Below are positions 45,830-48,013 of a stretch of DNA of 64,000 nucleotides, in pieces. Both the position numbers and the translations under genes were made by a program. Under the pieces are notes generated by a model. It did not search any database and was not told where the DNA came from. It saw only the letters and a list, made by a program, of their open reading frames with translations. The DNA is from Neisseria cinerea (GTDB lineage Bacteria > Pseudomonadota > Gammaproteobacteria > Burkholderiales > Neisseriaceae): NCBI RefSeq assembly GCF_900475315.1, contig NZ_LS483369.1, forward strand, positions 434,001 through 498,000. Direction: 5' to 3'. Each line of letters starts with the position of its first letter. Within the stretch, counting starts at the first letter, position 1.

Positions 45830-48013
45830 TTACGGTCGGTTTGCAGCCAATTCCAGAGATTCAGGTTCCCATACGGCTTCAAAAACCTGCAAAAGCCGAC
45901 GCGCGGTTTCGTCTGCTTCGAGCAAATCCTGTGCCTGCCGCCTACCTTCAAGTTGGATGCGCCGGCGGCGCATGTCCGGAGTTTCCCAGCCTGCGTCGTC
46001 GCGCCAGGGCTCGGTTTGCAACTTCAACGGCAGGCCGTAGGCTTCGGCAAGCGTGGTTCTGATTTTGTCGAGCCGCTCTTTGTTGGTCGTGGTGCGGGCT
46101 TCGTCGGTCAGCGAAAGCATCATCAGATGGCTGCCTGCATCGTATTGTGTCCATGCAGCGTGTTGCGCCAGCATTTGCGCTGCGCCGAGTTTGCGGGCGA
46201 AATGTCGGACGATTGCCGCCCAGTTTTCGGTGGAAAACTCAGGAGGTGGGGCGAATTGCGTACCGTCTTCGTCGTTGCTGCCTTCGTCGTCGTTGTTTTC
46301 TTCTTCCGCCTCTTCTTCCGCCTCTTCTTCTTCCGCATCGGCAGGGACGGCGTATTCCCAATCCGGCGGCGGGGGCATTTCTGCGCCGTCTTCTACGGGG
46401 TAGCCATCATCCGGAAAGTCGTAACTGTAGAAAGGTTCTGCAGGGGCTTCGTGCGCAAATGCTTCCGTTTCAACGGCTTCATCATTCGGTGTTGTCTGAA
46501 TGGGGTTTTCAGACGGCATTTCGGATAAGTAAGCCCCGGTTTCGTTGTCGGCTGCTTCGTTCTTGGAAACTTGATTTTCAGCCGATGTTTCGGCTTTGTT
46601 TGCGGAAGGGCGGTTTGCCTCTGTTGTTTCAGAGTTTGTTTGAATGCTTTCCGCTAACTCTTGCACGGGCACGTCCGATACGGTTTCTGCATCGTTCGGC
46701 ACATCTTCCCAAGGCAGAACATCGTTATTTCCCTGAGCGGAAGCCGATTCGGCAACCTTGTTTTCAGACGGCATTGCCGGCGTGGATGCCGTCTGAACGG
46801 ATGTTTGGGCGGTTTCTGCCTTAGAGGGAAGCGGCTTTTTTGCGGCCGCCTCCTTTTCGGCGGCTTGTGCCGATGGGGATTTTAATTCTGTATTTTCAAT
46901 CACGGCATTTGCCTCACATGAGGTTGCCGCCAACGGTGTAAACGCCAGCATACGCAGCAGGGTCATGACGAAGCCGGCGTATTCGTCGGGTGCAAGGCTC
47001 AAATCCTGTTTGCCGCGGATGGCGCATTGATAATAAAGCTGGATTTGTTCGCCGCTGAGTGTCTGGCTCAGCGGCAACAGCACACCGCGATCAGGGTCGT
47101 CGTGTGCCAAAGCGGATGACACCGCCTGTATCAAGGCTAGGTGTTGCAGCAGCATGGCCAGTTCGCCCAAGGCATTGTCAAAGCCGACGGCACACGCAGC
47201 CATTTCCTGCGCTTTTGCCAGCAGGGCTTCGCCGTCTTGGTTGATGATGCCTGTCAGCAGTTCGTACAGGTATTGTTTATCGACCGCACCGATCATTTGG
47301 CGGACGTCTTGTTCGGCAACGCTGCCCGAACCCATGGCGATGGCTTGGTCGAGCAGGCTCAGGGCGTCGCGCATCGAGCCTGCGGCGGCACGTCCCAAAA
47401 GTTGCAGGGCGGCAGGTTCGTAGGCAATTTTTTCGCTGTCGAGGACGTGGGCAAGGTGGTCGGCAACCTGCTGCGAAGTCATGTTGCGCAAGACAAATTG
47501 CAGGCAGCGGCTCAAGACGGTAACGGGAACTTTATGCGGATCGGTCGTGGCAAGGATGAATTTGACGTGTTCGGGTGGCTCTTCCAGAGTTTTGAGCATG
47601 GCGTTGAACGCGCTTTTGGAAAGCATATGCACTTCGTCGATGATATAGACTTTGTATTTGCCGGCGGTCGGTGCATATTGGGCGTTTTCCAATACTTCGC
47701 GGATGTTGTCGATGCCTGTGTTGGAGGCGGCGTCGATTTCTAGCAGATCGACGTAGCGCCCGGCATCGATCTGTGTACAGCTTTCGCATACGCCGCAAGG
47801 TTCGCCGTGTTGCGCGTTTTCGCAGTTGAGGCTTTTGGCAAGGATGCGGGCGATGGTGGTTTTACCTACGCCGCGTGTACCGGTCAGCAGGTAGGCGTGG
47901 TGCAGCCTGCCTTCGTCCAGCGCGTTGCGCAAGGCTTTGACGACGTGTTCCTGACCGACTAAGTCGGCGAAGGTTTTCGGACGCCATTTTCGTGCAAGAA
48001 CTTGATAAGCCAT
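45830..48013 (-). CDS. dnaX: DNA polymerase III subunits tau and gamma DnaX
   Basis: Clamp-loader ATPase, 727 residues for tau. AAA+ motifs TGTRGVGKTT and IDEVHMLS, plus a four-Cys zinc module CENAQHGEPCGVCESC, lie in the first 180 residues. Domain III ends near residue 360. A Pro/Ala/Glu-rich linker of about 250 residues follows with an extremely acidic stretch (EEEEAEEEAEEE), then the tau C-terminal domain that contacts the polymerase. A complete -1 frameshift cassette at residues 390-393 would yield gamma of about 397 residues. Confidence 0.97.
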   Translation of the reverse strand: MAYQVLARKWRPKTFADLVGQEHVVKALRNALDEGRLHHAYLLTGTRGVGKTTIARILAKSLNCENAQHGEPCGVCESCTQIDAGRYVDLLEIDAASNTGIDNIREVLENAQYAPTAGKYKVYIIDEVHMLSKSAFNAMLKTLEEPPEHVKFILATTDPHKVPVTVLSRCLQFVLRNMTSQQVADHLAHVLDSEKIAYEPAALQLLGRAAAGSMRDALSLLDQAIAMGSGSVAEQDVRQMIGAVDKQYLYELLTGIINQDGEALLAKAQEMAACAVGFDNALGELAMLLQHLALIQAVSSALAHDDPDRGVLLPLSQTLSGEQIQLYYQCAIRGKQDLSLAPDEYAGFVMTLLRMLAFTPLAATSCEANAVIENTELKSPSAQAAEKEAAAKKPLPSKAETAQTSVQTASTPAMPSENKVAESASAQGNNDVLPWEDVPNDAETVSDVPVQELAESIQTNSETTEANRPSANKAETSAENQVSKNEAADNETGAYLSEMPSENPIQTTPNDEAVETEAFAHEAPAEPFYSYDFPDDGYPVEDGAEMPPPPDWEYAVPADAEEEEAEEEAEEENNDDEGSNDEDGTQFAPPPEFSTENWAAIVRHFARKLGAAQMLAQHAAWTQYDAGSHLMMLSLTDEARTTTNKERLDKIRTTLAEAYGLPLKLQTEPWRDDAGWETPDMRRRRIQLEGRRQAQDLLEADETARRLLQVFEAVWEPESLELAANRP
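46821..46855 (-). promoter_or_regulatory. programmed -1 frameshift site in dnaX
   Basis: On the reverse strand AAGGAGG (46855-46849), a 7-base spacer, then the slippery heptamer A AAA AAG in frame (gcA AAA AAG, 46841-46835). In the -1 frame four codons (Ala Ala Ser Leu) precede TAA at 46823-46821. The heptamer matches E. coli dnaX. Confidence 0.85.

Follow-up and report, generated by a model that had tools for sequence, protein, structure and literature searches.

A very probable -1 frameshift site in dnaX, maintained at the nucleotide level in Neisseria, and a candidate reversed arrangement in a sister genus

Does dnaX of Neisseria encode one clamp-loader protein or two and, if two, which parts of the signal that would divide ribosomes between them are conserved? 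We addressed this question from a window of 64,000 nucleotides of the Neisseria cinerea genome (contig NZ_LS483369.1, positions 434,001 to 498,000), whose dnaX features are collected in Table 1. The gene is 2184 nt long, and its product matches NF006429 'DNA polymerase III subunits gamma and tau' at 1308.8 bits as well as the domain families PF13177, PF22608, PF12169 and PF12170, with clamp-loader domains I-III at about residues 1-358 (matches span 20-358) and tau domain V at about residues 596-719. Just after domain III, at gene nucleotide 1173 (zero-based position 2 mod 3; codon 391), AAAAAAG is read as gcA AAA AAG, a heptamer of the X_XXY_YYZ form in the zero frame. It is the only in-frame A_AAA_AAG among the 17,521 codons of the window's 45 long open reading frames, and on this count we reject window-wide chance as its source. 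The -1 frame runs from the heptamer into a TAA at 46823-46821, predicting a product that ends in KKAASL, and the position of the site after domain III would make this predicted gamma a clean clamp-loader subunit. A preliminary description of the window had placed the heptamer in the zero frame, an AAGGAGG seven bases upstream and a TAA four codons into the -1 frame, and had proposed a gamma-like protein of about 397 residues; the placements are correct to the base and the length agrees with our prediction. From the sequence and its conservation, we consider it very likely that the heptamer is where dnaX undergoes programmed -1 ribosomal frameshifting. Frameshifting in Neisseria dnaX is itself already known, from the Rfam family RF01843, from a published logo that includes Neisseria and from Recode-2, as cited in PMC3711429.

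Table 1 Features of dnaX in the window
Feature	Position in the window	Strand	Remark
dnaX, DNA polymerase III subunit tau, zero-frame product of 727 aa	45830..48013	minus	profile and domain matches
AAGGAGG, Shine-Dalgarno-like	46849..46855	minus	duplex with 16S tail, -12.2 kcal/mol
Slippery heptamer A_AAA_AAG, zero frame	46835..46841	minus	invariant in 40/45 Neisseria genomes
-1 frame extension GCC GCT TCC CTC TAA (AASL stop)	46821..46835	minus	ends predicted 397-aa gamma
Sub-threshold match to RF01843 neisseria_FSE	46788..46827	minus	29.1 bits, gathering score 50
Inverted DNA uptake sequence pair TTCAGACGGC / GCCGTCTGAA, 12-bp hairpin	46763..46797	minus	inside dnaX coding sequence

Comparison of dnaX over 45 Neisseria genomes with a usable gene, the window genome included, places A_AAA_AAG in frame at codon 381-395 in 40 of them. 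The heptamer is missing from the remaining five, N. elongata among them (L026/L086), so the genus can do without gamma made in this way. Where the heptamer is present, its slippery bases are conserved more strictly than the amino acids. The residue before the Lys-Lys is Ala in 24 genomes, Glu in 8, Pro in 5, Val in 2 and Leu in 1, and its codon (GCA, GAA, CCA, GTA or CTA) ends in A in all 40; GCA, CCA and CTA are minority codons in these genes, CCA making up 5% and CTA 1% of their own classes. Taken by themselves, the A endings of these codons have a naive probability of 10^-27, a figure that is too extreme because it takes no account of shared ancestry. The Lys-Lys itself is AAA AAG in 40/40 genomes, compared with 4/17 at other places in these genes, and the heptamer lies in 37 distinct contexts among the 40. 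Every one of these genomes also has an early -1 stop, 1-13 codons past the heptamer (median 5, compared with 14 for other positions in the same linkers), which would give a gamma-like product. The preliminary description had reckoned with the case that relatives keep the amino acids and lose the slippery bases; the outcome is the opposite, with bases kept and neighbouring residues changing in 40 of 45 genomes. We conclude that in Neisseria the slip site of dnaX is kept for its nucleotides, independently of the protein.

These patterns bear directly on other ways of explaining the run of adenines. If the Lys-Lys were kept for the sake of the protein, in a linker that tolerates lysine and in genes where 85% of lysine codons are AAA, the run would be a by-product of codon use, and slippage on it would be accidental and low. 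Such an origin is very improbable, given that the second codon is invariantly AAG although AAG accounts for only 14.5% of lysine codons in these genes, that the third-position A persists in five different preceding codons, and that the preceding residue varies between A, E, P, V and L. The run might instead act through slippage of RNA polymerase, of the type described for the A9 run of Thermus thermophilus dnaX. Similar runs do occur in relatives: A8-A11 runs lie in the same dnaX linker outside Neisseria (L050, L051, L082 and L083), in 13 of the 73 dnaX loci sampled across the order's other families (L241-L315) the linker contains a run of at least eight A or T, and L049, a Neisseria that lacks the heptamer, carries A10 there, so that transcriptional slippage is probably used nearby. 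The window gene, unlike that of Thermus, has only six A and then a G, too short a run where homopolymers of eight or longer are usually required, according to PMC3711429. A G also closes the run in all 40 heptamer genomes, which suits ribosomal and not polymerase slippage. We regard polymerase slippage as the source of gamma in the window genome as extremely improbable.

An unlikely reading, though one to be taken more seriously, accepts the frameshifting as real and gives it a regulatory or adventitious role, the shorter product going unused and not serving as gamma. The five Neisseria genomes without the heptamer speak for it, as do most other genera of the family, which have no such site. 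Its difficulty lies in the closeness at which the -1 stop is kept and in the location of the site just past domain III, from which a clean clamp-loader subunit would result; moreover, other devices at the same place in sister genera would yield the same two products. Programmed frameshifting that yields gamma thus stays our preferred account of the site.

The Shine-Dalgarno-like element upstream is conserved only in part. In the window gene, the duplex of AAGGAGG with the 16S tail (-12.2 kcal/mol) ranks among the top 0.3% of in-phase positions along dnaX. Its spacer to the heptamer is 7 nt from the last G, or 9 nt when counted from the GGA core; E. coli dnaX has AGGGAG, 10 nt and then the same heptamer, or 11 nt from the shared GGA core. 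The heptamer identical to that of E. coli and the closer upstream element that had been described are therefore both borne out, by either way of counting. Stimulation of -1 shifts by such elements has been associated with spacings of 9-14 nt (PMC5009743), so the strong pairing here sits at or below the lower end of that range. Among the 40 heptamer genomes, the complete AAGGAGG is restricted to the window genome and L009, and what is conserved across the genus is a GG core that precedes the heptamer by 11-12 nt, with G at -11 in 39/40 and at -12 in 30/40. Pairing to the 16S tail ranks high, the median genome falling in the best 5% of in-phase windows and 27/40 in the best 10%.

Downstream of the heptamer, we found no well-placed structure in the window. 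The Rfam family RF01843 (neisseria_FSE) describes the same gene and the same place just past the heptamer, and models only 40 nt of stem, leaving out the heptamer. The window match lies at the same position as passing members and stays below the gathering score of 50 bits, with 6/13 pairs of the stem non-standard; four close relatives pass the threshold (L012, 71.4 bits; L025, 65.8; L011, 62.4; L009, 55.1). Over nine relatives, the pairs form in 64% of cells, and in 38% for the inner helix, and most measures of pairing show no excess over shuffles. The Rfam stem is accordingly unsupported as a conserved stimulator, kept neither in the window genome nor across the genus, and the heptamer is the truly conserved part. 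In the window, folding of the first 60 nt past the heptamer is no stronger than that of shuffles (z +0.32), a measure by which the proven dnaX element of E. coli also scores z of about 0. No stem-loop begins 5-8 nt past the heptamer in the window, where the sole strong hairpin starts 37 nt downstream and is formed by the inverted pair of DNA uptake sequences. Most species that have such a pair carry it 37-40 nt past the heptamer, and many have none; a paired arm at 8-20 nt occurs only in L015, L017, L018, L021 and L029. At 37 nt the hairpin is too distant to push against ribosomes positioned on the heptamer, and its presence is probably incidental. Since the RF01843 stem is broken, no fold exceeds shuffles and the uptake-sequence hairpin is too far away, the signal in the window consists of the heptamer and the Shine-Dalgarno-like site, and is not the three-part signal of E. 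coli.

E. coli and its relatives (RF00382) share with the window gene the heptamer, the Shine-Dalgarno-like upstream sequence, the nearby -1 stop and a shorter gamma made by frameshifting, and differ in their 10 nt spacing and in an 11-bp stem-loop 5-6 nt downstream, for which the window gene has no well-placed counterpart. By the same logic, ribosomes decoding AAA AAG here would re-pair one base back onto AAA AAA, a step that a tRNA-Lys with anticodon UUU, the sole kind found, would favour through its preference for AAA over AAG. Some ribosomes would then read AASL and stop, releasing a 397-residue gamma that has the clamp-loader domains and lacks the C-terminal domains through which tau binds helicase and polymerase alpha; the remaining ribosomes would read through to the 727-residue tau. 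Sequence, frame, -1 stop and slippery-base conservation are read directly from the genomes, and from them we infer that slippage occurs, at some efficiency, and that gamma is used. The efficiency of the E. coli dnaX frameshift is 50%. That of the window site is probably lower, as it has no well-placed stem-loop and its upstream element lies close to the heptamer. Counting against strong slippage here, A_AAA_AAG without stimulators shifts only about 0.3% of the time in E. coli (PMC4066793). A meningococcal proteomics study reports DnaX, in passages that make no mention of isoforms (PMC5679670). The preliminary description, which called the cassette complete, was right in kind and overstated on this point: AAGGAGG occurs only here and in L009, its 7-nt spacing is at or below the stimulatory range, and there is no nearby downstream stem-loop. 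Of the three elements whose conservation it proposed to check, heptamer and -1 stop are kept across the heptamer genomes and AAGGAGG survives as its GG core.

The accepted account of slippage at A_AAA_AAG rests on lysine tRNA (PMC5009743). We searched 83 genomes for tRNA-Lys genes by pattern and blastn, with ARAGORN run on a sample of the matches. A tRNA-Lys with UUU anticodon is present in the window genome (L233), and the heptamer-bearing genomes are without a dedicated tRNA-Lys(CUU) in this search, from which weak or divergent CUU genes could escape. The presence of UUU and the missing CUU fit the accepted account. Within the family, the 83-genome search found tRNA-Lys(CUU) only in g6, part of g8, g10 and the genome G048, and this distribution may have to do with the choice of frameshift device. 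Lysine-tRNA content is no more than suggestive as a cause of the switch between devices, because the search found no CUU in G064 and G062, both of which have the reversed arrangement described below, and because g10 is one clade.

On the question of origin, the preliminary description had left it open whether the arrangement shared with E. coli was kept or arose again; our comparisons favour the latter. The E. coli heptamer lies at about codon 428, and the distance from the conserved LAFxP motif at the end of domain III to the site is about 67 residues there and about 31 here, so that the slip sites sit about 36 residues apart in the linker, at non-homologous positions. Nearly all sampled loci of other families are without the site: A_AAA_AAG occurs in the linker of 3/73, two of these within A9/A10 runs. 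On a family tree with quick support values only, the heptamer is confined to Neisseria, and the simplest reading is that it was gained within the Neisseriaceae with some losses, that in N. elongata among them; many forks are weakly supported, and the tree gives no firm count of gains and losses. The homopolymer runs have a distribution of their own. A9-A11 runs in L049, L050, L051, L082 and L083 lie at or near the same position and would suit transcriptional slippage as in Thermus, and the runs among the 73 loci of other families often have a -1 stop within a few codons; dnaX transcriptional slippage may be common in the order. Two further frame breaks came to light. In four genomes of family f19 of this order (L269-L272), the zero frame of dnaX closes at codon 441-460 and a long frame runs on in +1, with GES(T/D/E)APV conserved in 3/4; the +1 frame gave no match to the profile of tau domain V built from Neisseria, and the break may be a site of +1 recoding or a split of the gene. 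The break in L070 (G076), one missing C in a run of C without a slip site, is probably a sequencing error or a mutation.

In six genomes of the sister genus g8 (L076-L081), the arrangement is reversed. The zero frame of dnaX ends at codon 377-381, right after C_CCA_AAA (with UAA following directly, or one codon later in L081), at about gene nt 1122-1200, and reading goes on in the -1 frame. That frame encodes tau domain V, as detected by an HMM built from Neisseria C-termini (E 1.9e-17 to 1.9e-26), with a sub-cutoff match to PF12170 (E 9e-5). The heptamer is identical in 6/6 loci and is followed at 4-6 nt by a GC-rich hairpin in all six (z -2.1 to -5.0), whose base pairs differ among three lineages; in E. 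coli, the motif C_CC.A_AA.A is prone to shifting (PMC4066793). DNA uptake sequences of the Kingella/Simonsiella dialect are present in 5/6 of the loci. Expression of the tau C terminus from an internal start in the -1 frame is a rival to frameshifting in g8: a GTG lies 18-24 nt past the heptamer in four loci, but the -1 frame of L077 has its first start codon only 363 nt downstream. Taking the family together, we think it likely that Neisseria makes gamma by a -1 shift at A_AAA_AAG, that g8 makes gamma in the zero frame and tau by a -1 shift stimulated by the hairpin, and that others have A9-A11 runs suited to transcriptional slippage, the gamma/tau device having been rebuilt several times, even inverted, within one family.

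Genes that make tau by frameshifting are known from a limited number of bacteria and mainly have poly-A runs (PMC3711429, PMC5009743); 17 such genes of 12 genera are counted in PMC3711429, and Chlorobium phaeobacteroides is named in PMC5009743. The g8 genes share this architecture, using C_CCA_AAA, then UAA and a GC-rich hairpin in place of poly-A, whereas Neisseria dnaX follows the E. coli type of logic. We found no report of the reversed logic with C_CCA_AAA or in Neisseriaceae, the supplementary list of 17 genes in PMC3711429 lying outside the part of that paper on which this statement is based, and the arrangement appears new as far as we have found. The reversed g8 cassette is the part worth following, the window feature itself being of low to moderate interest.

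For Neisseria, comparison of 45 genomes alters the picture of a catalogued element: unlike the heptamer and the GG core, the RF01843 stem and the perfect Shine-Dalgarno sequence are not conserved, and the Rfam model probably covers the wrong part of the element. For the family, A_AAA_AAG, the reversed C_CCA_AAA-UAA, A9-A11 runs and genes with none of these form a compact natural series, which makes it possible to ask whether there is selection for the gamma:tau pair, whatever the mechanism, and whether the choice of mechanism is decided by lysine-tRNA content.
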